From the NCBI RefSeq assembly GCF_032854445.1, contig NC_088306.1, forward strand, positions 17,765,764 through 17,829,763: a stretch of 64,000 bases of DNA, in the 5' to 3' direction. Under the pieces are notes generated by a model that saw only the letters and a program-made list of their open reading frames with translations, made no database searches and had not been told where the DNA came from. Numbering within the stretch: position 1 is the first letter of the stretch; each line of letters starts with the position of its first letter. Source of the DNA: Liolophura sinensis (lineage: Eukaryota; Mollusca; Polyplacophora; Chitonida; Chitonidae). Both the position numbers and the translations under genes were made by a program. Shown in pieces: positions 10,001 through 59,100 of this stretch.

Positions 10001-13000
10001 TCAGAACTAAAACTACCAACAAACGATGGATCATACTGCTTTAAAGCTAAATCATAGTCTTTACTCCATTTCTATTGATAAACTTCACCGAGATTTTGCC
10101 AATAATACAGGTGCCTTGAAAACAGAGAATATTCTTTTATCCACCTCTATTTGTCATAAATAGACTTCACCGTCTTGCCAATTGTATTTGGTTGATGCAG
10201 GGGAGATAACGGCGAGTTGCATGGGTCCGACGCAAACAGCCCGCTGTCAGTTGTTCGACCATCACAACAGAACTTACACTGTTCGGATATTTCCCACAGA
10301 GGCCGGGCGACACACACTAAACATTACGTATGACAAGGAGCATGTGCCTGGTAAGTGTAACACTTAACAGATATGACACTTCAGTTACAACAAGGGGCAC
10401 TGCCTGGTAAGTGTAAAACTTGACAGATACTACACTCTACTCCACATGTTACGACGACCGTACATATGTACCAGGAAAGTATAATGTTGTTGATATATAG
10501 ATCGCACTTGACTACGCACAAGGAGCACGCGCAAGTAAAACTTGACGGATATGGCGAAAGAACACGTGCCTGGTAAATGTAGGACTTGACTACACAACAA
10601 GGAGCACGTGCCTGGTAAATGTAAAACTTGACTACACACATCAAGGAGCACGTGCCTGGTAAGTGTAAAATTTGACTACACACAAGGAGCACGTGCCTGG
10701 TAAATGTAAAACTTGACTACACACAACAGGAGCACGTGCCTGATAAGTGTAAAACTTGACTACACACAACAAGGAGCACGTGCCTGGTAAGTGTAAAACT
10801 TGACTACACACAACAGGAGCACGTGCCTGGTAAATGTAAAACTTGACTACACACAACAGGAGCACGTGCCTGATAAGTGTAAAACTTGACTACACAAAGC
10901 AAGGAGCACGAGCCTGGTAAATGTAAAACTTGACTACACACAACAAGGAACACGTGCCTGGTAAGTGTAAAATTTGACTACACACAACAAGGAGCACGTG
11001 CCTGGTAAGTGTAAAACCTGACTACACACAACAAGGAGCACGAGCCTAGTAAGTGTAAACTTGACTACACACAACAAGGAGCACGAGCCTGGTAAGTGTA
11101 AAACTTGACTACACACAACAAGGAACACGTGCCTGGTAAGTGTAAAACTTGACTACACACAACAAGGAGCACGGGCCTGGTAAGTGTAAAACTTGACTAC
11201 ACAAAGCAAGGAGCACGAGCCTGGTAAATGTAAAACTTGGCTACACACAACAGGAGCACGTGCCTGGTAGGTGTAAAACTTGACTACACACAACAGGAGC
11301 ACATGCCTGATAAGTGTAAAACTTGACTACACACAACAAGGAGCACGTGCCTGGTAAGTATAAACTTGACTACACACAGCAAGGAGCACGAGCCTGGTAA
11401 ATGTAAAACTTGATTACACACAACAGGAGCACGTGCCTGGTAGGTGTAAAACTTGACTACACACAACAAGGAGCACATGCCTGATAAGTGTAAAACTTGA
11501 CTACACACAACAAGGAGCACGAGCCTGGTAAGTGTTAAACTTGACTACACACAACAAGGAGCACGTGCCTGGTAAGTATAAACTTGACTGCACAAAGCAA
11601 GGAGCACATGCCTGATAAGTGTAAAACTTGACTACACACAACAAGGAGCACGAGCCTGGTAAGTGTAAAACTTGACTACACACAACAAGGAGCACGAGCC
11701 TGGTAAATGTAAAACTTGACTACACACAACAAGGAGCACGTGCCTGGTAAGTATAAACTTGACTACACAAAGCAAGGAGCACGAGCCTGGTAAGTGTAAA
11801 ACTTGACTACACACAACAAGGAACACGTGCCTGGTAAATGTAAAACTTGACTACACACAGAAAGGAGCACGGGCCTGGTAAGTGTAAAACTTGACAGACA
11901 TGCCACTTCACCCCGCTTTTGACGATGGAGATATACCAAGATCGTTTAATGCTGTTGGTATATATATAGATCCCACTTGACTACACACAAGTAGCACGTG
12001 TTTGTAAGTGTAAAACTTGACAGACATGACACTACACGCCGGATTGGACAAAGGGCATATACCAGATATATATACATGTAATGATTATGTATTTCACCGC
12101 CTGATTAGACAAGGAACATAGAACAAAGAAAATATCACGCAAGCCTCCATACCATTTAGGGGAAGTGTGCACAAATACTCCAAAACATTTGGTTCCACAA
12201 ATGGTCAAGAGCATACGTAATTCACGACTGTCTTAGTGTTTGAGCTTTATGTTGGTGATAGACAGGAGGTTTAGAGTTATGGATAACTTTGAAGTTAGAA
12301 ACAGATTTCTGTATTTTTTGCATGTTTTCTTGGTCCTTCAGTTATTAATTTAACATTTGTCATCCACGGGTTTTACATTTCTTGTTTTTGTTGCGATTTT
12401 CGACTGCATGTGAACGTTTCTAAAGCGGCTGTGTGTGCGCGGGGCATATCCATGTTGACCTCAAGCCCCAATATATTCACCATATGCCCCATGTTGTTGT
12501 TGTAGGCAGTCCATTTTCTATCAGAGTGATGGATCCTCCTGACCCTACCCGAGTTAAGGTGTACGGCCCGGGGGTGGAAGACGGAGTCATACAGAAGTTT
12601 CAGAGCCGCTTTATAGTAGAAACACGAGGGGCAGGGGCTGGGCAACTAGCCGTCAAAGTCAAAGGACCCAAAGGTAAGAGTGGCAATAACAGAGGTTAAG
12701 CTGGTTCTTCGCTTACAGGAGCTCCACGAGATGGCGCTACCGGAAGTTAAGGAAATAACATAGCAGCTCACAGCCCATGCGTACATCCATACAACGACAG
12801 TCCAGTGTGTTTCTTATCAAAAATTTCGACATCTACCGTTCCTTACGAATAATTTGTTTTCTTTAACGCCTTTTGAGACTTTTTGCCCCTATAAGTATAT
12901 TTTTCTTTTAATCACTTGAAGCAAAGGGATATCATTTATTAACCCCTATGCTAAACCCGAATGCCAGACTTGTGCGAATCGGCATTTTCAGAGTTTCATA

Positions 13001-13419: not shown

Positions 13420-15050
13420 GACGGGGGAATGTTATTCCTTTAACATATGTGCCGTTCGAAACGGCATGCGAGAATATTCTACACAGATCGCACGTACGTA
13501 TCGTATACAACCGACTTGATCGAGAGCGATATTCTTGATTCTTACAACAGGTGCGAGACAAACGGAAAGACCTCCACAAACATTTGTTGTGAATTTATTA
13601 AGTTATACATATACTTGTAAGATGAATATAGTTAGAGATATAGAAATATCAACATGTATAAAACCATGCATTAACTATAACGATATGTTTATTGAGGCAA
13701 GATACACACGTGAGCATGACATCACGTGGCGCACACATCATATGTAGGCACAGCATCGTACGCGGAACTTTGTATATATAACGCATGTACGAGAACCAAA
13801 ACTGTACTGTGTAAATATGGCACATCTCGACCTTCAAGCGAGGTGTACCCAAGGGTAGCGTGCGAACCACATCCATTTTGCGATTTAATCCATTTTAATC
13901 GGACTGACATAAAAATAGAATTAGACAGTATTGAGCATCGCATCAGTGGCGTAATGTTTCCTATAAATATTGATATATCAAGTCTCACAAGAGTGTTGAG
14001 TTCGTTATATATTGTACAAAGCAGAATATATGTATGACATAGTGAACCAAAGACATTTAACTGGAGATTTCGCTTTTGGTGCATTTTTAGTTACTATGAC
14101 ATTGTAGATGATGTTGAGGATATCGATGTTGTTGATAAAAATGTTGTTTTAAAGTAATGATGATGATAAGGTGAACAATGAGGATGATGATAATTGTGAT
14201 AAAAAAATAATAATGCTGGCACTGACGATGGATGCGTTAACAGTGGTGACCAAAGCGATGATGCTTACTGCAGTCAATATGTTTTTAAGGATGATATCGA
14301 CAGTAATGATGTCGAGGTTGCCATATGCGACGTTCGTAGCGATGTTGACATTAGTAATGTTGATGGCGATGAGACGAATAATGAAAATCAAAGATAATGC
14401 TAATTGTGTGTTGATTGTTGATGACAATGATGATGGGGTACACAAGCTATTTATATGTCTAGCTATTTATATTCAGGCCGTGCTAAAGACAAGAGTGAAA
14501 TAAAACCACATCTAAACCTTTAAAAACTGGTAATATCCAACTATCCAACACTGTTTTAACTTATCAGTATATATTTTCAAAGTGACTTTGATTTTGTCAA
14601 TTCTTTCGTATGTACATAATATATTCTGACCTTCATATGTAAGTCAGACTGTCACACTAAGATATGCTGTTAACGTATGAAAACATAAATACAACATAAA
14701 TATCACACAAAACTCATAATTCTTAAAAGACAGAGAATAACATATTTGCCGAGTCTCAACACAGGATAGGTGTACCCTAATAGAACATAATTGCTCACGA
14801 GATGTAAGCACTATCAAGTGAACAAAGTGTACGTTAGTATGAAAGACCTGTAGATAATTGCGTGAAGTTGAGACTTCCCAGTTTGTGACAGAGTTATGTC
14901 CCCTGTTTCTATGCTTTACCAGTGTCATGGATATTGCTCTTCGTGCAAATCTTACAAATCTATATTTACTCAACTTATCAAGCATGTAAATTGAACGTTA
15001 TACTTGTACACTTTGCTTGATGGGAATAAAGACTTTTTAGTCCACTGATT
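13420..15050 (+). other. Probable filamin 3' UTR
   Basis: No coding similarity is seen. The stretch is A+T rich and contains GATGAT-rich DNA at about 14100-14450. Poly(A) signals follow at 14499 and 15025. The scattered reading frames here match nothing recognised. Confidence 0.5.
15025..15030 (+). terminator. AATAAA poly(A) signal of filamin gene
   Basis: AATAAA is followed within 40 bases by T/GT-rich DNA (GTTTCTGTGTTTTG), the usual arrangement of a cleavage site. A weaker alternative AATAAA lies at 14499-14504. Confidence 0.55.
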
Positions 15051-21182: not shown

Positions 21183-24100
21183 GTCAGTATATATCCAATA
21201 CAATGTAGTGCAAAGTTATCACTATCGGAGAGTAACAACTGTAAACAAATGGCTTGTTGAACTCCCAGACACTGATAAAAACTTCACACAAGATCAAAGA
21301 AGGAAACACAAATACCCTTAGCTAAAACCAATACATATAATTGAACAATGTAATATAAACAGTACAGCATTAGTATGTACAGTATACAAAGTAATGTAAA
21401 CAACAACAAAATATGTTTCTTACGGGGAATACAACAGGCACAATTCCAGTCCAAGCCTCAGTCCCTTCTCAGAGACTTCTGCAGAGGCTACGCAGATAGT
21501 AGAGTCTTCTGCTAATGTCAGACAGATATTACAGACTTCTTATGAGGCTACGCAGATAGTAGAGTCTTCTGCTAATGTCAGACAGATAATACAGACTTCT
21601 TATGAGGCTACGCAGATAGTAGAGTCTTCTGCTAATGTCAGACAGATAATACAGACTTCTTATGAGGCCACGCAGATAGTAGAGTCTTCTGCTAATGTCA
21701 GACAGATAATACAGACTTCTTATGAGGCTACGCAGATAGTAGAGTCTTCTGCTAATGTCAGACAGATAATACAGACTTCTTATGAGGCTACGCAGATAGT
21801 AGAGTCTTCTGCTAATGTCAGACAGATAATACAGACTTCTTATGAGGCTACGCAGATAGTAGAGTCTTCTGCTAATGTCAGACAGATAATACAGACTTCT
21901 TATGAGGCTACGCAGATAGTAGAGTCTTCTGCTAATGTCAGACAGATATTACAGACTTCTTATGAGGCCACGCAGTTAGTAGAGTCTTCTGCTAATGTCA
22001 GACAGATAATACAGACTTCTTATGAGGCTACGCAGATAGTAGAGTCTTCTGCTAATGTCAGACAGATAATACAGACTTCTTATGAGGCTACGCAGATAGT
22101 AGAGTCTTCTGCTAATGTCAGACAGATAATACAGACTTCTTATGAGGCTACGCAGATAGTAGAGTCTTCTGCTAATGTCAGACAGATAATACAGACTTCT
22201 TATGAGGCCACGCAGTTAGTAGAGTCTTCTGCTAATGTCAGACAGATAATACAGACTTCTTATGAGGCCACGCAGATAGTAGAGTCTTCTGCTAATGTCA
22301 GACAGATAATACAGACTTCTTATGAGGCCACGCAGTTAGTAGAGTCCTCTGCTAATGTCAGACAGATATTACAGATTTCTGCCAGGATCAGGCAGATATT
22401 ACAGACGTCTTATGAGGCCACGCAGTCAGTAGAGTCTTCTGCTAATGTCAGACAGATATTACAGATTTCTGCCAGGATCAGACAGATATTACAGACTTCT
22501 TATGAGGCCACGCAGTTAGTAGAGTCTTCTGCTAATGTCAGACAGATAATACAGTCTTCTGCCGGGATCAGGCAGATATTACAGACTTCTTATGAGACCA
22601 CGCAGTTAGTAGAGTCTTCTGCTAATGTCAGACAGATAGTACAGTCTTCTGCCGGAATCAGGCAGATATTACAGACTTCATATGAGACCATGCAGTTAGT
22701 AGAGTCTTCTGCCAATGTCAGACAGATAATACAGTCTTCTGCCGGAATCAGGCAGATATTACAGGCTTCTTATGAGGCCACGCAGTTAGTAGAGTCTTCT
22801 GCCGGGATCAGGCAGACATTACAGACTTCTTATGAGGCCACGCAGTCAGTAGGCTACAGTCTTCTACTGATGTCAGACAGATAGTACAGTCTTCTGCCGG
22901 GATCAGGCAGATATTACAGATCTCTGTCGAGGTCAATGAATGACTAGTATACACTTCACTTATACACTTGTCAAAGTCAGTAATAATAAGTCAATTGTCA
23001 AATCAATTTATTGATTAGAGAACGGAGTGATAAAAAATGATTCTTGATTGGATGCAGAAACAATAGGCAACGATAATGACCTAATAGTAAGACATACAAA
23101 AAACTACAACGGGAGTAGAAACTTTGGATTTTTACCTGGGTAGAGTGTCATGTCTGATTTGATCCTTACCTGGGTAGTGTGTCATCTCTGATTGGATTTT
23201 TTACCTAGGTAGAGTGTCATGTCTGATTGGATTTTGGGTCACCTATCATGTCTGATCTGACTTTTACCTTGGTCGCCTATCATGTCTGATCTGATTTTTA
23301 CCTGGGTAGACTATCATGTTTTAGTTCATTTTTACCTGGTAGAATGTCATGTCTGATTTCATTTTTGACTTGGTAGAGTGTCATGCCCGATTGGATTTTT
23401 GCCTGGGTAGTGTGTCAATTCTGATTTGATTTTTGCCTGGGTAGTGTGTCATGCGTAACCCACTCTTTCAAGCTAAACCGTCCGCACTAAAAAAAACATC
23501 TTGTGTGTCGATGTGTAGGCTACCCACCATCGAGGTAGTTCAACTTAATCATTAGATGATTAAATACAAAAAAAATTCTGTTTGAATATGACTAAATCTT
23601 TTGCAGACGAAAGGTTAAAAGGTCAGACAACGAACATCTGCTTGACAATTCTGAGAATGCGTGGCAAACAGATGATGGATGTGGTATGTATAATAAATAT
23701 ATACAGCCTAGACTTTATTAATCTATTCAGGGGAGATTACCCTGTAAAGCACTGTGTGCATAAGTGGGTCATAGCCAATTATAGGTTATATTCACGTAAC
23801 AGATCCCTATCGATATGACCTATATGTACTTGTACATACGCAGCTTCTCCCCTGAATAGATAAATATTTTTTGAACTCTAAGCTGCATTTATTCACTCCT
23901 TTCATTTTGCAAGACCCGTTTACGCTCTCTGAACTTATGCTGAATCTAGGCATCCAAATAGACATTCGTATACAATCCGCCAACCAAACATGGAAATTCC
24001 AGGCCGATGACCGCAAGACTAATTTCCAAAACAACGTCCAATACAAGCCATCGGTGCATTAAGAAAGTATATAATGATATTCTTATGGACACTTCTAAGG

Positions 24101-27100: not shown

Positions 27101-30100
27101 ATACCCTTTTCTACTGATAGAAAATATTAAAGGCTATGCTTCCAAATAAGTTTTCGACATTAATTTGATGGGTTTTTTTTTTTTTCTTTAAAGCTTCTGT
27201 TCCGGTTTCTTACCACCATAATGCTGTCCGCCGTCGTGGAAGTGAAATATTCTTGAGTAGGACGTTAAACACCAATCAATCAATCAAATATGCTATAACA
27301 ATAGCAGAATAGGTCTACATTCTAGCATTCATTTGAGGATGGTCGTGGGTTTTCTGGTGTCCCCTCAACAAAATAACAGCGTGGTTAATAGTTAATTGAC
27401 AGACACGGAATCCCCTCGTCCGCTTATACCGGTATTCACTTAGACTCTCATGATGCAAATAGCAAACAGGAGACATATGTGGTAATAGCAATAAGAAGCG
27501 GGGCTCGGCTCTATTGCGCTGTGCGCTCCTCATGAAGTTTGGAGAGAATACGGACGTTACAGAATATGTGCTATATAACTGCGCATGACTGACTCACAGC
27601 TGTATGGGTTTGTATTCCCGCGGAACGAGTGCAGTATCGACCCTGAGTAAGTATAGGCAGAACCAATATATGTTCTGTTTTAATACTGCACCATGTGTTT
27701 GGATACAGGGTCGGTGTAAAAAAAATCATAATTATACAATCGTTACGAAGGTTAGATGACGGATGAAGATAACAGAGTTGCATATGAAGCCGAATTATCT
27801 ACTGTGTATTCACAACTAGCACAGGGATAAGCTCTTCAGTGTGTCATGCGAAGCTACGTAATATTTATAATAACAGGGACAGTCTCAGGTTATCATCGTA
27901 CCCAGGACTTCAATAATCAAGACAGCCTTAGGTTATCGTCGTACCCAGGACTTCAATAACCAGACATTCTTAGGTGATCATCGTACTCAAGACTTCAACA
28001 ACCAGACAGTCTTAGCTTATCATCGTACTCAGGACTTCAACAACCAGACAAGCTTAGCTTATCGTCGTACCCAGCTAAAGTCCTTTCCTGTTATTAACAT
28101 GTATATATGTGTATGCGTCATTGCCATCCCACATCAAGAGTTGAAAGCTTCGATCAGCTAATCACACAATCTGTTTTGTTTTGTTTTGTTTTTTCTTTTT
28201 CTTTTTTTATTTTTTTTATTTTTTTTTTTATTTATTTTTTTTTTTCAATGTCTTCTAGACGATCACTCCAGGGTTATATTACGAACTCTAAGACCCACAC
28301 AGGAAACTGACTTCATCAACGCCTCCTACATTGATGTAAGTAAAGTTCGTGGGATCTTTCATCATGATTAATTCTGTAGAACTAAGTGGGAAGATCTTCC
28401 AGCAACCTGCGGATGGTCGTGGGTTTCTCCGGCCTCCGCCCGGTTTCCTCCCACCATAATGCTGGCAGCCGTCGTATAAGTGAAATATTCTTGAGCACGC
28501 CGTAAAACGCCAAATCAAATAAATTCTATAGAAAGGGAATATTCTCTATGAAAACAACAGTCTTGAATACTCAAGATATTTTAATTAAGATGTCTATTTT
28601 AGTCCTGTCTGCTCTTGCCTTGTAAGACATTGAAATTTGACTTCAATATGGTTCCCAGATTCAATGGGTTTCATTTTTGAAGATATTTGAAAGTTTAAAT
28701 AAATTTTTAAAAAGCCCGTTCCTCCCTTCTGTGTTTTAGGTAGGGTTTTTATATATGCACATATTAAATATATGCACTGGTGTCATTTTATTTGGATTTC
28801 CCGTTTTTATACCGAGTGCATTTGAGATGGTTTTTTTTCAGGGAGGATACATCGCTGCACAGGGTAAGTGGGTTCAGCTAATTCTAGGAAAACTACCCAA
28901 GACATAAAAAAACCGATGGAGTCGAAATAATTGTGTTGGCTGAGTTCATAGCATGGTGTTTCCTAAAAACAATTTTTTTCCTGCTGTTTGTCTTAAAACA
29001 TAAGTATACCTGGATTGCAAAATCCCATTCAAAGAAATATCTGTTTTTGTTGTCGTCGTTGTTGTTGTCTTTCCATCGAATCACATAAACTTACCTGGCA
29101 AACCTTGTGGGATAAAGCTTCAGTCGTGGCTGTGAAAGTTGTATTCAAACAGACCACCGCCTTATTCCGTGGCCGGCTGCCTTTGTGAAAAGCCTAGTTT
29201 TTTTTATAACCCTAACACACGAATGTGTTTCGTAACTTTATAGGTCCAACGTCAAACACGATCACGGAGTTCTGGAGGATGATATGGCAAGAAAGGTGTA
29301 GCCGTATAGTGATGCTGACCAACCTTCACGAGTGGGGAGTTGTGAGTTTTTTTTATTCTGTAGGCCTACTCTACTGTTTGTTTCCGGAATGGCACAACCT
29401 GACGTCTATCCACATTATCTATATACAACAACAACGTGATATACATCACGCAAGATCCTGTTTTGCAAACTTCCGTCTTGCAAATGGAGATATAACTACT
29501 TTTGTAACCTAGATATATAATAATTTATGTGGCGGAAGCGGTTCAATTCACGCTAAATGACGAACTCGATAAATGACGAACTCGAGTTATCTCCCTTAGA
29601 CGCTTGAAGTCAGATTTCAGTTAAAATTGGTCAGCCAATCGCAAGCGACCACCTGTCACATGTACTATTTGGCCGTTTTAACGATCAATGCAAAACTTTG
29701 CAATGCAACTTTACATATTATAAATGAATTCAAGATTACTTAGTGCATAGACGTATAGCATATTTTTTCTCCATGGGTTTAAACAAATAAAGTTTCCAAT
29801 TTTGGTAGTGAGCAAACAACAAAAACTACACCAGTTGATTATGGGTTATTTCTGAAAATGCTACGTTAAAAAATCAGAACAATTTTCATCCTAGCTATTT
29901 AAGTTAATGACGTGAATTATTGTTTGTGTTTGCAAAGGTGTGGGCTTAAAGCTTTGTGCACTTAATCAAAAGTTTTGTCGTTGAAAAGATGCAACACGGG
30001 TTCGAACCCATTGATAAGCTCATTTGGCATCGTCAAGTATTTTCTGTGAAACATTTGATGGTCACATCTGTAAACGGTTGATAACACACATTATGATGTC

Positions 30101-33100
30101 TTGTCTGAAGACGTTGATAACACACATATAGATGTTCTCATTTGATGATGAAGGTAACACGTGTTTTGATGGTTTCGTGTATAACACATATCTTGATGTC
30201 TCGTCTGAAGATTTTGATAACACACACATAGACGTTCTCATTTGAAGATGAGGATAACACGTATTTTGATGGTTTCGTGGATAACACATGGTTTCATTTG
30301 ACTTCAGAAAAAGGTGGAACAGTACTGGCCAGATGAAGGGGAAGTTCGATATGGCGACCTGGTCATCAAAATGGGAAGCGTCCAGCATTTCTCAAACACT
30401 CTTTTGAGAAGGCTTACAATTAACTTGGTACGTAATATTGATTATCAGCCCAACGGATAAATTCAAAATGATTTTTAACACAGATACATCAACGTCTTGT
30501 CAGTGACTGTAAATATAAGCTTAAGGACTTATTCAGAGAAAATAACCGCGGATGGTCGTGGGTTTCCCTGTCCGGTGCCCTCCCACAACAATGCTGGCTG
30601 TTGTCGTATATGTGACAGGCGTCGTCCACAGCAACTGTACTGTCATTGGAGATACCTCCCCTTGTAGCATTTTTTATGCCTGAAGATTTGCTGAATTTCC
30701 ACGTATCTTCTCGTGGTTACGATATAAGGTACTGAAAGTTACGTTTTTCTTACTTCTTCGTGTTATTGGTGCGATGTCATTGTAACAAAAGAGTAAACAC
30801 ACATGAGTTATGGTTAAGGTAGAGTGCCGTGAATACTTTGTGCGTGATGGATTTCAGTATTTCTTATTGTACGCAGAATTCTAGCAGTTAGCTCAGCGTT
30901 ACTATGTGACGAAAACTGAGCACTTCATGAGATATGAACGCAAAGTGTTTCCGTGCATTTTTCAATGGACTTTGTTTTGTGCACGCAGTGGACGCAGTGG
31001 ACGCAGTGGAGTCTAAATGCTTCCTTTAGAATTTACTGAGATACTGGTAGTTATACTGAAGCCATCAGATGTGATTTACTTGGATTGCACACACACACTT
31101 GTTAGGGAAATGAGAGTTCGCGATGTCAAACAGTAGTGAACTCAGTATTACCGTAAATATCAGTATTATGGTTTGTGATTACAGATGTTTGCATGTACTG
31201 TGAAATTCCATTCCCTTAAGAGTCAGTAGCTGTCCCACGTGAAGTTACACATGTAAGATAGTTGTCTGTAGGGAAAGATTCTCACCACTTTCATTTTCTG
31301 GAGTTCTTTTTTGGTTTTGTTGTTTGTTTGTTTTTTTGTTTTCTTGTTTTTTTTTTTGAATTCCTGTTTGTTCACTCTAAAAAAGGCTGAAAGGATCTGT
31401 GGCTTCTCATATGAATCGTAGTAACAATACAGGAACAATATATGGCCAAGGCATGTTTAGGCCTAATTACTCTTGCCATAGTTATTATATTGCTACATAC
31501 GTCCACGGCCATAAGATGCATGTTTCATTATTGAGATATTTCCTGTGTATGATGTAATCATAACACTTCATTGCAGTTAGTGACATAAAGTTCTGCTGAT
31601 AATGGACTGATGTATGCTAGGATGTGTGCAGCGGTTAAAGGATAAAGGATACTGCAGTACAGAATTGTCTGGTTGTTTGTAGTACACTGTAATAGTAAAG
31701 TATCAGTACTAAATCTGTATTGTTGTTTTTACAGGTAGGGTTATCTCCCATGTTTGTTTTCTCCTCTTGTTGTCAAGTGTGTCTTCGAGGTCAGGCAATA
31801 AATATAACGGCATTCCTGTGACAATGAAAACACGCCGTGTCTGCTGTGTTTTTTTTTTTTTTACTATGGCCCCCCTCACACATAAGTGGAACATTCTTGA
31901 GTACGGTGTAAAACATCAATCAAATAAATAAATGATTCTGAGACAAAGTCAACTAATGGATAAAGCCATTGTGAAAAAACATTGTGACTAAAATTGTGAA
32001 AATGTCCATATAGCTTTCGAAACAGAACTGTTAAAGAAAGTTTATTACATTGGATGATGTAAAGTTGACAACCAAACATTTCACTTAAATAATTAGCCAA
32101 ACTCTCTGACTGGAAAATTGTCAATTTTCTCGGATTATGGTCTATTTATGCCCTCAGGGTAACGAGTCACGTGAGGTGTTGCACTTCCTGTATCCTGACT
32201 GGCCGGATCATGACGTTCCCAGTGAAACGGCTGGTATCCTTCACTTCCGGTTCCAGGTTCACTCGGTTGACCGCCAGTCCACTGGGCCGATTGTCGTCCA
32301 CTGCAGGTAACTTCCACGGCACATATGTTTTCCTCGTGAACAGATGCTGTTCTAATATCTTCATATTGCAGTAGTTTATATAATATGTGAGTTCCGAGAA
32401 ATACTTTTGCCGTAAGGTTTAAATGTATTTGGTTTAAAGATATGCTTTATTTACATACGGAATAAAGTTAAACTTTACGCTTATATTTTTGCTCCGTTTT
32501 CAAATAGAAATAACATTGTAAGATGGCCATTTTACATATTTGTTTGGATTAGTAAAATTGTTATGTAAAGGATTGTGTACAGAAAAGGAGTAATAGATCC
32601 ATCTGAGCAAAAATATGGGTTGTAACGGAGCCACAAGGAGAAGCATATCATTCAAAACAATAATGGTAAAGGATATACCCCAAATCCAACTGGATATATA
32701 AGCATAGCACAAATTTGCATTATTTACGTCTGTGTGGTTAATAATAATAAAAATAACAATGGTTCAGTATTCATACGTGCACATGCATACTTCCAATCCA
32801 TATATGTTATATTCATATTCATACGTGCATAAATGGAAATATTTAAAAATTCATTTAAGTTCTCATCACCAAAGAGAAATACGACAGCAGTGATCTCTCT
32901 TGTGTGACCCGGCGTTAGGGTCTTAATACTTTCTGGTAGGTTATTCTAGTCAATGATGGTCGTAGATAGAAACTTTTTCTTAAAATGCTCTGTTCTACAA
33001 TGTACAGAGGTTAACTGGTTTGGTGATTTACAAAGTATGGTTATGATCTACTGTTCTGGGAGGAATATGGTCTGATAAAGTGCAAATGCCTGGGTTGTGA

Positions 33101-36100
33101 ATAATGTGATGCACATAAACCAAAGGATGCATGTGCCTTCGTTTACGGAGAGGAAGCAATCCAGATTCCTGGTGTAGCAAATTCGTAGAGGTACTAACTG
33201 TCAATCCAGTAATCATTCGAACGCATTCTTTTTGATTTTTTTCCAGCCTGTTTATATTATATTCGGTAAGAATGTCTCAAACTACATCTGCATATTCTTG
33301 ACATGATCTAATAAAGCTCGTGTTCATAATAGAAAATGATTTCCTGTTCATTATAAATATATATGTCAATCCTCTAGGAAGAGATCATTTTTTATTCGCG
33401 GCTTGAACAAGGTTATCAGTATGATTGCTCCAAGTGGCTTGAGTATTCAAAGTACTGCTAAGATGCTTGTGTGTGATAGCTGCATTTTGTAATGTCAACT
33501 GAGGGCGCGATGACGTTCTACGTCTAGACACAAGGAGAGATTCAGTTTTATTAGAATTCAAATTTACCAACCAAGTGGATAGCCACGATTCAGTATTAGA
33601 TATATCCTTCAACAGTGTTTGATGGACAAATTATCTGACACAACATATAAACGTGTAGTCAGCAAAAATGTATTTGGTTGGTGTTTAACAACTCACTGAT
33701 TAAAGTCATGACATGCAGAATGGACACGTTCGGTAATACTTACCGTCAACTTCATTATTCGCTTTTTCTTTTTTATGCAATGAAGTTGCATCAATGACAT
33801 TTACGTTTAGGCAATAATGAAGTAATTAAAACCCTTCTACTACCCGTTTGCATGTATGTTTTCCAGTGCCGGCGTCGGGAGAAGCGGGACGTTCATCGCT
33901 CTGGACTTACTGCTCCACCGATGTCTGAGATCCCGTCACGTGAACGTTTTCTCCTGCGTCGTTCACCTCAGGAGCAGGCGCACTCAGATGGTGCAGACGC
34001 TGGTACGTGGTTGTCTCCCTTTATAAATCCCCACCAATACTGCCCGCGTCACCAAATTTCCAGGTCGGTTGTTACAATTGTGTCTTTAATATTTATTTTC
34101 AGCTAATGCACTAATATGACTTCTTTACAGAACTAGCACGTAATCCTTCACAAGTTTTTACAAACTTGTTTACAAAACCGGTGGGTGCATTTCCACAAGT
34201 TTTTAACTTTGTTTATTATGTGTTCTCACAAAGTTTTTATCTTTGTTTACAGCATCAGTGAGTGTTCCTTCGCAAGTGTCTAACTTTGCTCACAGAACAA
34301 GAGCGTGTTCCTTCACTACTTTGTAATTTGTTTACAGTGTGTGCTCACAAAATTTTTAATCTTTGTTTACATCGCCAGTACTTGTTCTTTCACTAATCTC
34401 GAACTTTTTTTTTCAGAACTAGCACATAATCATTTACAAGTGTTTAACTTTGTTTACAGGACCAGTACGTGTTCCTTCACAAGGCTCTCCTGGATGGTAT
34501 GCTCTGTGAGGGTTCTATCATGCTGGAGGAAGATTTCTTGGCGGCTTCGGTGCGAATCTCGAGGTCGTCACATGACTACGAGAACTTGAACCGTATTAGC
34601 CAGCAGTATGAGGTAAACAGTCATAGGTGATATAACTAATACGAGGAATGAAAGGTAAACAAAGCAGCAGAAAGCGATACGAGGATAACAGAGGTGTTCC
34701 GATTAATAGCAGATAAATAGATTTGATCCGTGCAATATGACATAAGTAGAAGTGGCCTGAGCGACATTACATAAATAGAATTGTTTTGACTAATATAAGT
34801 CAAATTGTGACTAACAATATGAGGTAAACAGCTAATCCGACCAACAGAAGTTAAATAGAATGATTACCAGCAATGCCGTGTATATAATTGGACTCAGTCA
34901 TATGATGCAAATGTGATTAGTACAAGCAGTATGAGGTAAACAGAATTGTTTTGAGCAATATGGCGTATTTATAGAGTTGTTATCGGCAGTAAAATCAGCA
35001 GTGAGATAAATAAAATTGTAACCTGCATTACGAGGTAAACAGAATTGTTACCTGCAGAATGAGTCAGTAAGTGAGTGCTTGGGGTTTAACGTGGTATCCT
35101 GCAGAATGAGGTAAATAGAATTGTTACTTGCAGAATGAGTGAGTGAGTGAATGCTTGGGGTTTAGCGTTGTATCCTGCAAAATGAGGTAAATAGAATTGT
35201 TACCCGTAGAATGAGGTAAATAGAATTGTTACTTGCAGAATGAGATAAATAAAATTGCTACCTGCAGTATGAGGTAAACAGAACTGTTACCAACAATATG
35301 AGGTAAACAGAATTGTTACAAGCAGTATTAGGTAAATAGAATTGTTACCAGCAGTATGAGGTAAACAGAATTGTTACCAGAGGTATGAGGTAAACAGAAT
35401 TGTTACCAGCAGAATGAGAGAAATGAAATTAGTTACAAGCAGTATGAGGTTAATAGAATTGTTGCCTGCAGAATGAGGTAAAAATAATTGTAGCTGCAGA
35501 ATGAGGTAAATAGAATTGTTACCTGCAGAATAAGGTAAATAGAATTGTTACAAGCAGTAGGAGGTAAATAGAACTGTTACCAACAATATGAGTTAAATAG
35601 AATTGTTACCTGCAGAATGAGATAAATAGAATTGTTACCAATAATATGAGGTAAATAGACTTGTGCCTACAGAATGAGGTAAATAGAATCTTTACCTGTA
35701 GAATGAGGTAAATAGAATTGTCATCAATAATATGAGGTAAATAGAATTGTTACCAATAATATGTGGTGAATAGAACTGTTACAAGCACTATGCGGTAAAT
35801 AAAATTGTTACCTGCAGAATGAGGTAAATGGAGTTGTTACCAGCAGAATGAGGTAAACAGAACTGTTACCAACAATATGAGGTAAACAGAATTGTTACAA
35901 GCAGTATTAGGTAAATAGAATTGTTACCAGCAGTATGAGGTAAACAGAATTGTTACCAGAGGTATGAATAGAATTGTTACCAGCAGTATGAGGTAAACAG
36001 AATTGTTACCAGAGGTATGAGGTAAACAGAATTGTTACCAGCAGAATGAGAGAAATGAAATTGTTACCTGCACAGTGAGCTAAACAGAATTGTTACCAGG

Positions 36101-39100
36101 AGAATAAATTTAATAGAATTCTTACAAGCAGTATGAGGTTAATAGAATTGTTACCTGCAGAATGAGGTAAAAATAATTGTTACCTGCAGAATAAGGTAAA
36201 TAGAATTGTTACAAGCAGTAGGAGGTAAATAGAACTGTTACCAACAATATGAGGTAAATAGAATTGTTACCTGCAGAATGAGATAAATAGAATTGTTACC
36301 AACAATATGAGGTAAATAGACTTGTGCCTACAGAATGAGGTAAATAGAATCTTTACCTGTAGAATGAGGTAAATAGAATTGTCATCAATAATATGAGGTA
36401 AATAGAATTGTTATCAATAATATGTGGTGAATAGAATTGTTACAAGCACTATGCGGTAAATAGAATTGTTACCTGCAGAATGAGGTAAATGGAGTTGTTA
36501 CCAGCAGAATGAGGTAAATGAAATTGTTACCAACAATATGAGGTAAACAGAATTGTTACCAGCAGTATGAGGTAAACGGAACTGTTACAAGGAGAATGGG
36601 GTAAATAGAATTGTTACCTGCAGAATGAGGTAAACAGAATTGTTACTTGCAGGATGAGGGTGAATAGAATTGTTACAAGGAGAATTAGTTAAATAGAATT
36701 GTTACTAGCAGTATAAGATAAATAAAATTGTTATCGGCAGTACGAGGTTTTAAATATAATATAAGAGAATTATAAAAGCTTTATTGTATTTATTGAAGGG
36801 CGATCATATACGAACGCCAAATTAATTCATGAGCCAATGTCTAAAGACACTTCAGAAACTTACAGGGACTATTTTCCCTCCATCCACAGAAACTTGAAGC
36901 TATAAAACCCTTGTTGGATGAGCAGCCATGTGAAGAAGCCACCAGTCCCGAGAACATTGGTAAAAACCGAGATTTGAATTGTTTACCTGGTACGTCTGTG
37001 TTTAACCTTTCAGTTGGATTGCTGGAAAACACTATATACATGACTTACAGCACAAAGAGTAAAACCAAAGCAACCATGACGGTGTGGTACTTGACAAATG
37101 GTCACACGTGACCAGCAAAATGCTATATAGGCAAAACAATCATACTCACTATCAAAATTGAAAAAATGGATGAAAACGTAAAGAGCGTCAGCAAGAGGTT
37201 GACTGTATGTGTTCTGTCTTTACTTTTCCATTCAATTGTCTTCATAACCCAAAAAAATGCAGTAAATTGGCGAAAGATGGAGATGAAATCTGTATTAATT
37301 TGATTTGAATGCATTGCGTATAAAACTCAGGCCATGCACTTAAATTAGTGGGGATATCTTATATTTTTTCAGTTGATTACGTCCGACATGCGAGGCTTTG
37401 CCTCGTATTGCTCAGTTCTACTGTGGCAGTAGCTGATTCAGAACGGCAGTGAGTGAACTGATTTAAAACGGCATTAAGTGAACTTTCTTGTTTGCAGATT
37501 TCCGCTTCCGGGTGTACCTGACTTCCGTAACCGGAAAGGACAACTACATCAACGCCGTCTACTTCCCGGTATGACTCCGTATACAGGGTCACCCCAAATG
37601 ACATAATGTAGTTATTTCATGTTTTCAGATATTTTAGAAGATTGTAACAAAAGGGTTCAGTATAATTGTTTCTGATGTATGCCTCTTAATAACTCAACAA
37701 AAAAGTTTTCCTTTGAGACCTAGCTGGAGTTGTTTAAGCTGCACAATTAAGACATTCTCTGCTTACATCAAACCCTAATAGGTCCAGTGTAAATCCTTGC
37801 TCCTTTAGAACTCAGATTCGACACTATTCTGTTTACTCTAAAACTATTAATCTCTACAACTGTACATAAACTGAACTGTTTTTGAAATATGGCTTGCACA
37901 TATTTAAACAGTTTTATCTCATAAATCGTCTCGACGCAGACAGTTTTTTCTTTAATTGTGAAAGGCATTCTTTCAAATAAAAACTATGATGAAACTTTTT
38001 GCTATATCCTCTAACAGAATCTGAAAACTGAAAGTTATACTATTATTATTAGCTTTTTTTATTAGCTGTATTATCAGTTGAATTCATTTTTAGGTCATTT
38101 TGTATATTTATTTCATTACGTCAACTGGACTCTCCCTGGTTTCCACTCACCATAATTCTGGCTGCCGTCATATAAGTAAAATACATGTATTCTTCAGTAC
38201 AGCATAAAACACCAATGAAATAAATAAACTGTGTCAACTCCACTGTAGGAGTCAGGTTTTTGTCTGGTAGAAGTGAGAGGATCGCTGTAAGGAATCTGAC
38301 AAGATCTGAAAATGCAAAAGCGATCAGGACATTCCTAGATAATGAATTACATGTAAATTGTCAGTGACGCACATAATATTGGGAAACACATGAAAGTACA
38401 CATACTGTATTGTGGAGATATTCGCAAAAAAGTGTTTTCTATTATTTGGGTGCCTCCGTAGCCCAGTGGTTAGCGTGCTAGTGCAGCGCAATAACTCACC
38501 GGCCACTCCCCAGTGCGGTTGCTGGGAGCTCAAGTTCAGCTCATGCTGGCTGCCTCTCCAGTCGTACGTGGGAAGGTCTGGCTGCTACCTGCGGATGGTC
38601 TTGGGTTTTCCCGAGGCTTTGCCAGGTTTCTTCCCACCATAATGTTGGCCGACATCACATGAAACATTTTTCAGTGTGGCGTAAAAATGCAATCAAATAA
38701 ATTAAACAAATAAGTAACATGTACTTAACTGTTAACAATAGTAAACATCACCTTGATGGAACGACGTCATTTCCCATCATGCATTAGTCATGTTTGTGTT
38801 TTCTTTATGACTATGCTGTTTACTACCATCCATCATACTATTTATTAGTGCTTTCCGTACCTAATCCTGACGTGATTGAAAGCTGCGCGCTTCTAGTCGT
38901 TCATTGGGTCCATACTAAGATTCAAGAACGCTTTCGGTAACTAACGCATTATTGACGTTATTGAAACTTGTCAGCCTTCAGTTCACCGCCTTTTGACAAT
39001 ATCACTGATTTCTTTGCTTATAGGGCTATGGGAATCGTCGTCTGTTTATCTCTACCCAAATGCCGCTGTCTAACACGGTACAGGACTTCTGGCGGATGAT

Positions 39101-43282: not shown

Positions 43283-43299
43283 AATCCGTGTCAGACACA

Positions 43300-44428: not shown

Positions 44429-45409
44429 CTAAGAAATCACTTTCCGGACATTTTCAATTTTCTTGAGAACAATTTCTTTGATAACCTGCAGAGTGGCAGA
44501 AAGCTGTTGATTCCAAGTCCAACAGAGAGCCCAATGCGCTGAGAAAAATCCGGTGTTAATAACAATGCTCCAGTACACGCAACTAGACGGAACAACCATT
44601 AATAATGGCGCGAAAATACATAAGGGGGCGCTACACACAACAAACGTGATGAGTGTTGACGTCGATAGTTTCCACAGAAGAGACTGCTTTGCTTTCCAGA
44701 GCGCCTCGTCATCGGCATTGACGGCGGAGCCATTGGCACTTTGGCTGATGTCCCAGACGTTAGTTCCGCTGGCGGTGCTCCTCAGCTCTCCATACGACTT
44801 GTACAAGCAAAGGGTTGTGACGCTAATTGGTATAACGCTTACTGCCAGTTCTGTTACTAAAAGATAATCCAAACTTTTCTGGTAATCTAAAGAACACACA
44901 GGCACTTCCGCAGGTGGTTTGATGTGGTACCTTCCCCAGCCGAAGAATGGAAATCCCGCCCAACAGGCAGCAACCGCCCAGATGAAGCCGCAAGTCACAA
45001 CACAACGCGGTTTTGTCATAATGGATTGGTAATTCAGAGGCCGATGGATGGCTAGATACCTTTGTACAGCCAAGAAAACCATACTTAGTAAAGCGGCCAT
45101 GCAGCAACAGACGTGCATCCAGCCCGTAAACTGGCACAGACCCTCGCTGACGACAGGCACCTTGACGTCAGAGGTGACACTGCTGACAGACGGCGTCGTT
45201 AGGGACGTCACACTGGCTGCCGCGGCGAAGTAAACCGTCATGAAGAAACTGCTGACTGTCAGATTTAGCTGGGACAGATTACCGAAGTCCGTCTCTCGAC
45301 CGCACCACAGTCGAAACACGAAGAGAAGGATCACTGTCAGATTCCCAAGGCCTCCTAAACAAGCACCAGCGATGAAGAGAGACGCTCCTGCAATGCGTTC
45401 TCCATCCAT
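44429..45409 (-). CDS. Rhodopsin-class G protein-coupled receptor, atypical motifs, single exon
   Basis: An uninterrupted 326-codon frame with seven hydrophobic helices. Seen: Asn23 in GNL of helix 1; Cys92 at the top of helix 3 paired with Cys162 in VCSLDY of loop 2; Trp134 in helix 4, then PFFGWGRY; Pro184 in helix 5. Missing or changed: D2.50 aligns with Ser54, DRY is QRY (116-118), CWxP is CSAP (269-272), and helix 7 ends HWALCWTWN instead of NPxxY. Helix 7 has no lysine, so it cannot bind retinal like an opsin, although the loop 2 region resembles opsins and melatonin receptors. N- and C-termini are very short. The ATG follows GTCCCC; Lys/Ile-rich helix 8 ends the protein. The ligand is unknown. 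It is convergent with the phosphatase gene. Confidence 0.85.
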   Translation of the reverse strand: MDGERIAGASLFIAGACLGGLGNLTVILLFVFRLWCGRETDFGNLSQLNLTVSSFFMTVYFAAAASVTSLTTPSVSSVTSDVKVPVVSEGLCQFTGWMHVCCCMAALLSMVFLAVQRYLAIHRPLNYQSIMTKPRCVVTCGFIWAVAACWAGFPFFGWGRYHIKPPAEVPVCSLDYQKSLDYLLVTELAVSVIPISVTTLCLYKSYGELRSTASGTNVWDISQSANGSAVNADDEALWKAKQSLLWKLSTSTLITFVVCSAPLCIFAPLLMVVPSSCVYWSIVINTGFFSAHWALCWTWNQQLSATLQVIKEIVLKKIENVRKVIS

Positions 45410-45499
45410 GGGGACTATATCAGATGAGTACTGATCGAGTAACGCGGAACAGTTTCGAACCCGAATAGATCAAATGCACAGATCCAGATAGAATCTGTT

Positions 45500-52639: not shown

Positions 52640-53033
52640 TCCACTTTAAATTCACTCACGTTTGTCCCTCAGAGTGTGATTCTCTAATGAACCTGTTGGT
52701 TTCACTTGATATTTTCTGATTGTTTTTAAGGAATATGTTGGTCTGTAACATTGAAATTCACCGAGAAAACACTTGGTCTCACTTGTATTTCACTCACCGG
52801 ATTGTCTGTAACATTGCGATTCACAAAGGAATCAGTTGATCCTACTTACATGTCACTCGTTTTTGTCTGTAACATTGCGATTCACAAAGGAATCAGTTGA
52901 TCGTATATGTCACTCGATTTTTGTCTGTGACATTGAGATTCGCCAAGGATTTGATTATTTGATCCCATTTGCATTTCACTCGTTTTTTGTCTGTAACATG
53001 GAGATTCGCCAAGAAAACATGTCATTGTCGTTC
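52640..53033. repeat. ~58-bp tandem array in the myosin 3' UTR
   Basis: About six units with TTTTGTCTGTAACATTGCGA and ATTCACAAAGGAATCAGTTG. It ends directly at the minus-strand stop codon (53034-53036), so it forms the start of the myosin 3' UTR. Confidence 0.85.
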
Positions 53034-53147
53034 TCAACAATAGGATTCCCCAGAAGGGTCCCCATCTACAGTCTTCACTCTCTTCTTCATATGGTAGTTC
53101 ATCAGCCAGGTGATGTAGGCCATGACTAAGTCGTCGATATTGTGACC
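53034..53147 (-). CDS. Myosin terminal exon
   Basis: Acceptor TTTATTCCAG, stop TGA at 53034-53036. It encodes [19 protein letters not shown], then a short basic/acidic tail. A tandem array starts directly after the stop codon. Confidence 0.88.
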   Translation of the reverse strand, partial: GHNIDDLVMAYITWLMNYHMKKRVKTVDGDPSGESYC

Positions 53148-56100
53148 CTGGAATAAAGCACACAGATTGATCGATTCATTCATTAATTTTTAAAGGAGAA
53201 GAAAACATAAAAATGATTCCAAAATCAGATGAAAGACCGTCAAATCTTATTTGCAAATATGATCTTTAATATCTTTTTGGATTTTTTGGGGGGACGAAAG
53301 GTTATTTGAAAATTTTTTGTATGGTGGATATTTGGAAACAACCTTTGGTATTTCTCGTTGTTGCATAATAATGTACTAAATAACGATGTGATGCTTGTCT
53401 AATAAATTTATTTGAATAAAAATTTGGTGTTTATATCGAAACATATGCATTTAACCTAAATTAAAATTCTAGTGCAAAAATATTATTAAACCTGTGTTAC
53501 ATCCTCATATATGACAATATTAAACAAAGACTATAAATACCAAAAGGTGGTCACAAATACCCACTGTACAAAAATTATTTTCAAGTGTCTTTTTCTCCTT
53601 AAGGAAAAATCGGAAAAAATATTGAAGACCACATTTAGGAATAACTTTTCGCACTCTTTCATCAGAACCACATGTTATTTTTATGTTTTCTCCACCTTTA
53701 AAGTAAATAATGTTATTGATTACTGTTTAACGCAAATGTGATGATAACACAGTATTTCAGTAATTCTATAGCACTGACGTCTACCATATTGCGATTAACA
53801 TCACTGCATTTCGTTTTACCTAATTCTGCCTAAACAATGGTGTTAGGGGCTTGTAAATTAAGGATTTACACCAATACTAAGAACAAAACCTTAACCCCAT
53901 TAAACTGACAGAAGATCAGCCTCTTTGGGTTACGTGTGACCATTTAAAAACTATCAAACTGTCCTCGCTGCTCCAGTTTTTCTCTCTTATATTAATAAGA
54001 TATCCCACCTGCATGATGATGGTTAATGCCTTTATTAATCAAGCAACATAAAAATTAAACCATATATTGCACAGGGCTTAAACGCGGATTGAGAATAGGA
54101 AAGAACTCAAATCGTGGTTAGTACATTGTTCAGCAGTAAAGATCGCGATCAGTGTACAAACTTCCTAGAGTAAAACGTTTTGATTGTAGCTGTTTGAATT
54201 TTTCACTTAAGTCTTAAGACGTGTGATAAAAATGGCCCCTGACTTTATGGTTGGGGTGAGCCAGAGTGCCAGAGTGAGAGTAAAGCATGGATTTTAGTAA
54301 GTTTATTACGTTTAATCTGGGTTTATACACTTACTAGAGCAGTGTCCAGGACCATCTTGGCGGTGTTGACCGAGTCTCCGATGAGCAGAGTGAACTGGCT
54401 ATTGTCGTACTGCCAGTTAGGGATCTTGGAGTAGCCATACGTCACCAACATGTCCTAAAGGGAGATAAACAGACGGGAAGTTGAGAACAAACGTGGAATG
54501 AGCATGTGCAAGAAAACTAGAAACAATGCTATATAAAACAGTCATTTCCAAACACCGGTACAAGGTTTGTTTAAAAAAATGTACCGTAATGTTAAGTCTC
54601 TTGGGAATTGTCCTTGCGATTATTGAATCTAAACGTCCATTTTCGTTAACGGCTGGTATACGAATGTCTGTTTCGGCGCATAGATTTTGAAGACTGTGCA
54701 ACGTTGCGTAGGTAGGTATGATCCACTTGTCGTACACTGATTTTAAAAAATATCCATTTTATAACAACAATTTTTAATAATTTTATCCATTTTATGTATA
54801 TAACAGTTCTGATGAAGTAAGGTAACATCGAAAATATGCCACTGACACAAACAAATGGACTTGATAAACCGCCTGCTTAGAGCCTTACGCATAAAAGTTG
54901 ACAAATTCGAATATAATGACATCAAATACTAAATTCATGCATATTCTTATTTATTTATTTATTTATTTATTTATTTGATTGGTGTTTTACGCCGTACTCA
55001 AGAATAGTTCACTTATACGACGGCGGCCAGTATTATGGTGGGAGGTATACATATTCTTCACTATGTAATTAATAATACGTGTGTTCATAGGGCAGAAATG
55101 TTTAATAACTCTTTCAATAACGTTGGAATATCAGGAAAAGTAGAACGCAGGAGGAAATAGGTTAATCAACCTCTATAGTTGCACTATGTAATAGGAAATG
55201 ACGTTATCGATTCTGAGTTGCAAGACATAAGACGCGAAAACATTAAATTAACTTTTGCTTAAGTATTGCTTTCTACTATATAAGCTAACCACCTGGCCTC
55301 TGACGCATAAATAAAGAAATAATGGCATTTACCTTTGTCTGTCGGTCGATGAGATACACTCCAGACGTGTTGATTGCTAACAGAACGTCTTTAGGATAAG
55401 ATTTGGCGCTTCTTTGCTGAAAGTGAAAGTGAAAGCGGAAGTGAAAGTGAAAGCTGAAGTGAAAACCTATGTAGATAAGCCAAGCCAAACTAGGCAAAAC
55501 ACACACCAAGAAATGTGCAGCACCTTTCGTTCATTCATACTGATTTATATCACAGAGTCACTGTTTCTCAAAAATACAGAATGTTAAAAGGGTAAAGAGA
55601 ACCAACAGTTGAACAAAACAACCTGGTGTATGTACATTTCTATTGCACTGTCATGCATAGCTTTTGTGGGCGTGTATTTGGTTAACAGATGTGGGTTACC
55701 AAAAAGTGGATTTCTTTATTATTAAGTTTGGTTGATCGGTTTGGTTAATTTGATTTAATTGACTGTTTCAAAGCTGTATGCATGAACACTTCTTTTATAT
55801 GACAAAACTAGAGTGTTTGGAATAAACATCCGACCGCATATTGCTGGCCACTGTCGCATAAATGAAATATTCTTGAGTGCGGCGTAAAACACCAATCAAA
55901 TAAATAAACAACCGAATAAGTGCTAAGTAACGCAATAAAATTCTCGTTCCCCCTCCCCATGGATCTTCGTTATAGCCACAGCTTACCTTCACTTCAAAGA
56001 AGACGGACCCATACGTAGGCCAGTGGCTGGCAATTTCAAGGAAGCCACGCTTGGCGTCATCTACGCTCATCTGACTGTTCTGAGACAAAGTAGACACAAT

Positions 56101-59100
56101 GTTCTGAAACGAGAAGATTAACATATTGAAAAGTTCCTGAAACGACAAGATTAACATGTCGGATCGTTCCTAAAACGACAAAATTAACATACTGGAACGT
56201 TCCTGAAACAACACGATTAACACACTGGAACGTTCCTGAAACGAGAAGATTACATATCGGATCGTTTCTGAAACAAGATTGACATATGGGATTGTTCCTG
56301 AAACGACAAGATTAACATACAGGAAAGTTCCTGAAACGACAAGATTAACATATACGCACGTTCCTGAAACGACACGATTTACTAGAACGCTCCGGAAATG
56401 ACAAGAATAACACGTTGGAACGTTCCTGAAAAGACAGGATTTAACATTCTGGAACGCCCATGTCATCAGAAATAGAGATAGAAATGGCCTGTTTTGCTGA
56501 TGCGCCACTTGACATGGTGTTCTTTTTTTGTGCAACGTTCTCAGAAGTCATTGGCGGCTTGTTAAGGGAAATTCCGCTGTATTAAAAATTGATTAACTCT
56601 TTATTTTTCTTTTGAAAAAAGGACAATATATCGAATGGCGTTGGTATAAAACGGATTATAAAGCCAGTGATAACAAAGATGATCAACACAATCAACTGTT
56701 CCACGTAGTTGGTAAGTTATTTCTAGCTCTGGTAAAAGTACTGGCGTGTATAATAGGTGCGATGTACCTACATAACCGAACCCATAACCGAACCGCATTC
56801 ATAGGCAAGTTTTCATCCAATGCGGGGGCCTGAGTGGCCGTCGTAGTTAGCTGCCAACACAGTCTTATGACGCACGAGCCTCCCACTACAGCGGTCGCTA
56901 TGAGTCCAGCTCATGCTGTCTTCCTCTCTGGCTGGAATTTTTTGCTGGAAGGTCTTCCAGCAAAATGCAGATTGTCGTGGGTTCACCCCGGGGTTTGCCC
57001 GGCTTCCTCCCACCATAATGCTGACGGCGGTTATATGAGTGAAATATTCTTCAGTATGGCGTAAAACACTAATAAAATAAATAAATAAATTTTTTACTTA
57101 TATTTTACTTCTTGAATAAAATCTGTTATCAATCTGTTGAGTCTCACCTCTGCCCAATCGTCGGCGCTCCTCTTCTTTAGCAAGTCATCCGGAATAAGCT
57201 GCGGCAAGGATTTTCTGGGGGGAAAAAAGAAATGTCATAACAGAAGTGCTAATTCTTTTCAAAGTTTGCAAATGATTTTGACGCCTCCTTTAAACGCTGT
57301 TTCATGTCATATTACTACCGTGTATACTAGGAGAAGAGTGGTCCAAATACCAATATATTTACATGGCTTCCCCGCTGACACGCCTTGACGAAGACACCAG
57401 ATATGAAGCCCCATCTATTCACATTACACATACATCTGGTCGACCTGTACTTGGCTTGTTCATCGTTTTCTCCCCGGTCGTACGTGGGAAAGGTTTCGAT
57501 GCAACCTGCGGACGGTCGTGGGCTTCCCCCCAGGCTCTGCATGTCTCCACCATCCATAATGCTGGCCACCGTTGCATAAGCGGAACATTCTTGAGTACGG
57601 CGTAAAACGACAAAATCACACAAAGAGTGAAAGAAAGAAAATCGCACCAAGTTCGTAGATTTTAAAAGCGTAGGTAAGCCGCAACTCGGGAATGAGCTAT
57701 CCTAGTCCAGTGCAGGGTAACTATGCCCCATTCCGACTTTTCATGTTACCAGACTATATTTTCTTACCGTATGTCATCTGACGAGGCCCTCGTCGTGCCG
57801 GCTTTCACCACGTAGACACACGCGGCCAAAGTTACTGCTTCTTCGTCCGTCACTTTGTGATATCCACGAAGGTAGTTAGGCAGTTCCTGAAAGACATGAA
57901 TATGAAAAAATTTTAACCCATTCTACTGAAAAATCTACTGTAGCTCCGAAATCGGGTCAAGGCAAGAGCTGTTTATCTCATCACCTTGGTGCGGTTTTCC
58001 ATTTTTGTGGTGATAGAAATGTTTTGGCCATTTACAGGAAACAAATCCACAAACACCTTCTCTTCACATGTCAGAGAAAGACAGAAATGAAAAATCAATA
58101 GAACTTCCGTACCATTGGCTTGATTTTATTTTTGCAAATGACTGATCTGACCAATCATACACAATATTGTGCTATTCAAATTTGAAAGAACGCCTTATCT
58201 GAGGAAAGATAGTGGCCGTCAGAAACCTTAGGGTTCACACGTTAGGCAGTGATGTTGGTCTTCTGTTAGGAATTCCTCACAGGGGACTGTGTATGTTGAA
58301 GGCATGTACTTTGCCAGGGGCGTGTAGGCTTTCAGAACATAATCCTGACATTGGTAAATTCAGAAGGAGTCGGATTTCACTGGTCCTGCGTGTGACCATT
58401 TACCAGCTATCACTCTGTCATCACCGCTCTGATTTTACTCTCTGTGATGTAGTCTTTTAAATACAAGGTAGTAGTAGTGTTCAGATAAGAAGACGAAAAC
58501 GGCCATGAAAAAACCCGTCGCACCACATTCATCAGTTTAGCAACCTTACCTGAGTATAATGGAACTTCAGGTCTGCCACAGGGTCGGAGTCCGGGGCGAC
58601 GTTCACCCAGAGTTTCTTCATAAAGAACAGAGCCAAATGGCGGGGAGGGGAGTCTGCAATATGCAATAGAAAGGCGATACTTACATGTACATACTAAACA
58701 TAGGCGTTTCGTTTAATAAACGCATCCTGATGCTTAATAATAAAAACTATGTTTAGTAACTAAAGAAGTGTTTATTACAGTAAATATGTGAAATGTTTAC
58801 ATAGTAATGCTTACCACAGTAAGCAGGTGACATGTTTACAAAGTAAATGTTACATGTTTGCTATGTAAACACGCTTACATTTTTAGCGGCTTCTTTCACA
58901 TAACAGCAAGTTATGTTTACTGGACAGTGTGTCTCTCTGGCAAATAGTTACCCCAATACTTTACAAAGCATTCCTTATGTTTACTATAACAACACATTCC
59001 TTTAATTACTAAGCATAGCCTTTGATGAATAAACACAAAGACGCGTTTATTAACTGTGAAAATAATGTGTTTAAATGCTAAACACATATTTTACTGTGTA

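Follow-up and report, generated by a model that had tools for sequence, protein, structure and literature searches.

Tandem arrays that repeat the splice site at exon edges of a chiton genome resemble the "mirages" of amphioxus

The window analyzed here is a 64-kb stretch of the genome of the chiton Liolophura sinensis (C12:17765764-17829763; genome of 609 Mb in 632 contigs), in which several introns carry minisatellite-like arrays that begin at an exon edge and repeat the splice site found there. The window holds a filamin gene and a receptor tyrosine phosphatase (PTP) gene, both on the plus strand, and the FERM tail of a myosin-VII-like gene on the minus strand. The stitched exon models are free of stops (10 filamin exons, PTP exons 5 to 14, and nine myosin exons running to the gene's own stop); the short PTP exon 4 is modelled one base off, and PTP exons 1 to 4 were excluded from the protein searches. 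The stitched products match the Pfam families Filamin (2e-85), Y_phosphatase (8e-91), and FERM_M (5e-19), and PDB alignments cross the relevant junctions in the PTP product (receptor phosphatases, 2fh7) and the myosin product (myosin VIIa, 5mv9), whereas the filamin edges are supported by Pfam and the open frame, not by a PDB alignment. Because of these open frames and of the Pfam and PDB matches, we regard the four edges named in a first-pass annotation of the window as real edges in three genes: the donor after 10350, the donor after 34612, the acceptor ending at 34459 (exon starting at 34460), and the minus-strand acceptor ending at 56104 (exon starting at 56103). The exons and arrays at these edges are the following.

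10201..10350, plus strand: filamin-repeat exon ending in KEHVPG, whose donor (score 10.8) is the outermost copy; supported by the open stitched frame and PF00630.
10351..11895, plus strand: donor-templated array, unit of ~44 bp including ~19 exon nucleotides (nt), 32 copies.
34110..34459, plus strand: degenerate acceptor-templated array, unit of ~42 bp including ~24 exon nt; the start is approximate and was set by eye.
34460..34612, plus strand: PTP exon (DQYVFLHKALL...SQQYE) with arrays on both flanks; supported by the open frame, Pfam, and PDB.
34613..36748, plus strand: donor-templated array, unit of ~29 bp including ~14 exon nt, 54 copies, degenerate near the exon.
55987..56103, minus strand: myosin-VII-like FERM exon (NIVSTLSQ...FFEVK); supported by the open frame, Pfam, and PDB 5mv9.
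56104..56456, minus strand: acceptor-templated array, unit of ~33 bp, nine copies, with little or no exon part in the unit.

Each of 60 exon edges in the window was represented by a junction probe of 30 bp (12 exon and 18 intron bases) and was scored as positive when at least two copies were present in the intron. At a threshold of at least 20/30, 4/60 edges have their junction repeated in the adjoining intron, exactly the four that had been singled out before, compared with 1/1,740 among the other edge-intron pairings. Looser thresholds gave 4/60 versus 4/1,740 (at least 19/30) and 5/60 versus 16/1,740 (at least 18/30). When the uniform seeding of 10 intronic arrays was simulated, a mean of 0.69 arrays spanned an edge and four or more did so with P = 0.002, a value that is optimistic because the first-pass annotation had picked the window for these arrays. 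Its statement that splice-site-templated arrays lie at four exon edges of three genes thus stands, with corrections in detail. The true site is indeed the outermost copy at all four edges, which is expected of any tolerated duplication and is not an independent clue. Likewise, the splice site recurs as part of the unit at all four edges, with a weak case at 34459 and an almost exon-free unit at 56104. The 34459 array is the weakest of the four, with three to four extra copies, and was unreported by Tandem Repeats Finder (TRF); its exon-side identity is 0.67 to 0.79 across 24 nt, although the automated estimate of its extent gave 0. At 56104, identity between unit and exon is 0.27 across 15 exon bases, and 0.33 to 0.43 when the first 18 bases are taken by sixes.

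For exons elsewhere in the genome, we used 130 exon anchors found genome-wide by Pfam PF00063, PF00102, and PF00630, none of them in the window. They comprise 70 of 81 myosin matches (the 30 best loci and 40 hand-picked ones), the best 30 of 151 phosphatase matches, and 30 of 52 filamin matches, the latter consisting of 10 in locus L069 and 20 hand-picked, with several exons belonging to one gene; 13 anchors from L069 onward that have a stop inside the match were retained. Their 260 possible edges were narrowed to 194 above the splice-site score (113 donors and 81 acceptors) and, after removal of six redundant or simple ones, to 188. At nine of these 188 new junctions (donors of L026, L034, L073, L076, L100, and L107; acceptors of L041, L070, and L073), the junction is the first copy of an intron-directed array, compared with 1/17,832 among other same-type pairings of junction and flank. 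Seven of the nine are clear by eye; the donors of L073 and L076 are weak and are excluded from the strict count. Of the clear cases, one is a phosphatase exon; the other six are myosin exons and lie on five contigs (two on C12 and one each on C1, C2, C8, and C11). One extra copy only is present at four further edges, of which two are clear dimers (L089 and L069@50589079). The first-pass annotation had proposed a genome-wide comparison of intron arrays with their nearest splice sites against exchanged pairings, and in this reduced form the comparison bears it out.

The four window arrays and the seven clear new ones give 11 arrays, six at donors and five at acceptors, with unit lengths (copy spacings) of 29 to 129 bp. 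In 10/11 arrays, ~10 to 50 nt of each copy correspond to exon, and the exon pieces inside the copies encode stretches recognized by Pfam (e.g., L041, L070, and L026). Acceptor copies at L041 hold ~30 exon nt coding for the phosphatase stretch DTNRVVLDA, and those at L070 hold ~48 exon nt encoding ANPLLEAFGNAKTVRN, with NPLLEAFGNAKTVRN as the Pfam-recognized stretch; L026 copies hold the end of QCVII, and L107 copies hold YNYLTQ. Given that the exon sequence is fixed by the protein, it is probably the exon that gave rise to the intron copies, rather than the intron copies to the exon.

Arrays of this kind are known from amphioxus, where "mirages" denote minisatellite-like tandem duplications across intron-exon boundaries, found in Adh3, the globins BflGb6 and BflGb9, and PGBD5; they occur at 5' and 3' boundaries, have units of 10 to 160 bp, and are reported to leave splicing regular (PMC3087553, PMC3902484). 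By definition, many but not all of their copies carry AG/GT signals, and the length of the array is unstable between haplotypes (PMC3087553). As far as the available parts of these papers describe them, the chiton arrays share every mirage feature tested: they span exon-intron junctions (with an exon part in 10/11, unclear at 56104), their unit lengths lie within the mirage range, they occur at both boundaries, and the splice signal is present in many, not all, copies (130/155). They are thus real and recurrent, and they extend a known class to a new phylum; the remark of the first-pass annotation that it knew of no named class for them does not hold, because the class has already been named in amphioxus (PMC3087553, PMC3902484). 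Unlike the amphioxus mirages, in so far as those accounts cover them, the chiton arrays occur in a mollusc host, in three gene families, at 9/188 sampled junctions, and with a measured excess over intron positions. In the open-licence literature we found no report of mirages in molluscs; within the parts available, they are reported only from amphioxus (PMC3087553, PMC3902484), and for cone-snail introns only microsatellites are described (PMC3862624). What is new is therefore the phylum, the frequency (9/188 sampled junctions, seven in the strict count, and 4/60 in the window), and a moderate measured excess at edges. A little-known curiosity of amphioxus extends to another phylum, and junction arrays look common across the chiton genome.

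We consider it likely that the chiton arrays are mirages in origin as well. A segment straddling an exon-intron junction would have been duplicated in tandem, the array would then have been lengthened and homogenized by slippage or unequal exchange, and the intron would have gained one unit per duplication. The junction copies lie on the intron side, recur in several genes, and are in excess at exon edges. That the extra copies are all intron-side would follow because the protein is preserved only in alleles that splice at the copy nearest the exon. Repeated local duplication seeded at exon-intron borders and tolerated through use of the first site had been one of two explanations in the first-pass annotation; its first element, duplication at the border, is supported, and the first site is presumably the one that is used. 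The duplication mechanism, the neutrality of the copies, and what causes the edge bias considered below are points that we infer.

Among the alternatives, the one that survives best is uniform seeding, according to which minisatellites arise frequently at all positions within introns and some of them span junctions, without any preference for splice sites. The sampled introns are rich in arrays, and the arrays of L018, L032, and L042, which form part of the crowding near exon edges, start 14 to 31 bp inside the intron without a splice site. However, at control positions at least 100 bp inside the same introns, first copies were found at 0.99% (bootstrap 0.54 to 1.50%), compared with 4.8% (9/188) at junctions; since control positions are autocorrelated, the bootstrap was made by flank. 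This corresponds to a junction enrichment of 4.8-fold (bootstrap 1.9 to 11.1), or 3.7-fold (1.2 to 8.5) for the strict seven, which a rough estimate from array density and unit length would cut to about twofold. A second comparison concerns the donor word MAGGTRAGT, which occurs 33,488 times genome-wide, 1,192 of them in spaced tandem triples (3.56%). Per occurrence, this is above all five control words (reverse, 1.44%; shuffle, 1.51%; the shuffle's reverse, 2.07%; second shuffle, 1.49%; and its reverse, 1.41%) and 2.4 times their median, with the provisos that the triple counts are matches, not arrays, so that long arrays weigh more, and that genes may not behave like the remainder of the genome. 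Counted by eye among the matches listed, 100 matches correspond to ~16 arrays with the donor word and to 13 to 14 with its reverse. Because genuine donors make up only some of these words, the excess at such donors is expected to exceed this value; by our own arithmetic, it would be about five- to sixfold if the ~9,800 surplus words over comparable controls are donors. Together, these comparisons argue well, though not conclusively, for a modest bias of arrays toward exon edges, and we regard uniform seeding as unlikely, although it retains some weight.

Several points weigh against junction-templated duplication as we read it. After removal of flanks already positive, positions 30 to 100 bp inside introns are raised too (25/1,014; 2.5%), with 5/1,864 at 100 to 300 bp and ~1% farther in; the excess therefore spans ~100 bp, not the junction alone. 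The constrained exon copy may keep edge arrays recognizable for longer, and array births could be partly uniform in a minisatellite-rich genome. Clear cases are skewed among families (6/7 myosin and 1/7 phosphatase), with 0/30 among filamin anchors, and exon sequence is nearly absent from the 56104 array. That splicing of the mRNA uses the outermost site is presumed from the genomic sequence. Finally, when upkeep of the splice dinucleotide was compared with that of other base pairs in the columns around the junction, the dinucleotide lay above the average pair in 8/11 arrays (equal to it in one, lower in two), mostly slightly.

This last tally is also what speaks for decoy or booster sites, the other explanation in the first-pass annotation, in which selection keeps the copies as additional donor or acceptor motifs that adjust splicing. 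The upkeep is clearest at 56104 (0.89 versus 0.80), L026, L070, and L107 (1.00 versus 0.87). However, the dinucleotide falls below the average pair strongly at L034 (GT in 7/16) and slightly at 10350 (27/32; other pairs, 0.86), and it is retained in 130/155 pooled copies, compared with 132.3 expected from the other pairs. In all six donor arrays, the true site scores at least as high as the median copy, and in L107 it exceeds every copy by more than 1 bit; in acceptor arrays, copies and true site are of about equal strength. Donors and acceptors are, moreover, both hit. When acceptor arrays are translated in the downstream exon's frame, an in-frame stop lies at most 49 nt from the exon in 10/11 arrays, and only 56104 is open across two units. 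The stop of L034, at 39 nt, follows shortly after the first unit, which is 32 bp long and the use of which would shift the frame, and unit length is not a multiple of three in 7/11 arrays. Given these stops and non-triplet units, productive use of the inner copies is unlikely. The claim of selected decoy sites is thus not upheld, and we find this explanation improbable; the arrays fit neutral passengers of an intron that would be spliced at its outermost site. A minisatellite with multiple splice donor sites in a human interferon-induced transcript was reportedly described by Turri, Cuin, and Porter in 1995; judging by its title, donor sites are repeated there likewise, but at a single locus, whereas here stops lie near the exon in 10/11 arrays.

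Slightly less probable still is intron gain by tandem duplication (the Rogers model), in which a duplicated junction makes new introns, not longer old ones. The authors of the amphioxus globin study proposed it for mirages, and boundary cases exist in potato and human. One duplication crossing an intron-exon border can create an intron, as in the potato case (PMC4974935), and variable internal tandem repeats at the exon-intron boundary of duplicated human genes may form novel introns (PMC2812944). As described in the available part of the potato report, the duplication also crosses the boundary, but a new intron arises there from one duplication, whereas in the chiton many copies extend an intron that was already present. 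The human repeats were searched within exons of recent paralogues, and the part of that paper available to us contains no class of splice-site-templated intron arrays. Each chiton array adjoins a single junction that already exists, and the reading frame of the exon continues into a conserved domain. An assembly artifact is barely credible: tandem repeats are known to be prone to misassembly and the amphioxus authors met one such case, but copies within the chiton arrays differ from each other, cases recur on several contigs, and the arrays (~0.3 to 2.1 kb) are shorter than the HiFi reads of the assembly, which averaged 8,347 bp (PMC11068029).

Returning to junction-templated duplication, we put forward a broader version of it only tentatively, at a confidence that stops a little short of belief: exon edges in a protostome genome may be preferred birthplaces of minisatellites, at ~5 times the rate of ordinary intron positions, and junction-templated duplication may be a pervasive way for introns to grow, either common to molluscs and lancelets or evolved convergently in them. 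If exon edges are such hot spots of tandem duplication, part of intron length would stem from the introns' own splice sites. The arrays also provide a natural series of repeated splice sites with which to ask how the spliceosome selects the outermost one.

Two further features of the window lie at exon edges.

30080..30307, plus strand: possible fifth edge array, unit of ~100 bp, recognized by eye and under the threshold used.
55418..55464, minus strand: array of the 6-bp unit CTTTCA forming the pyrimidine tract of the myosin-gene acceptor at 55416, up to the AG; a microsatellite version, uncounted.

The final partial copy of the 30080 array contains the true acceptor of the PTP exon at 30308. 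Five further intronic arrays reported by TRF in the window lie away from edges (5568, 7458, 21473, 23127, and 27878). Of the 41-bp unit of the array at 7458-8475, ~15 bases occur by eye in inverted orientation at 6970-6990, ~500 bp upstream, beside a long AT repeat. An open frame of 494 amino acids at 21400-22881 was rejected as an exon by the gene model and corresponds to an intronic array with a 60-bp unit; it draws several Pfam matches, presumably spurious, and is a trap for gene prediction. The array at 52741-53007, with a 61-bp unit and donor-like words, is not a splice-site array, as it follows the myosin stop codon directly and presumably belongs to the 3' untranslated region. Elsewhere in the window (44432-45469, minus strand), a single-exon receptor of the rhodopsin family (PF00001, 2e-25) has a 57-bp array upstream. 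Among the sampled loci, the very similar L057 and L059 differ in a 43-bp intronic array away from the edge (3.0 versus 4.0 copies), which suggests fast turnover. Exons of receptor-type tyrosine phosphatases, finally, are very numerous on C7, C15, and C3, where many similar ones among the 151 matches are clustered.

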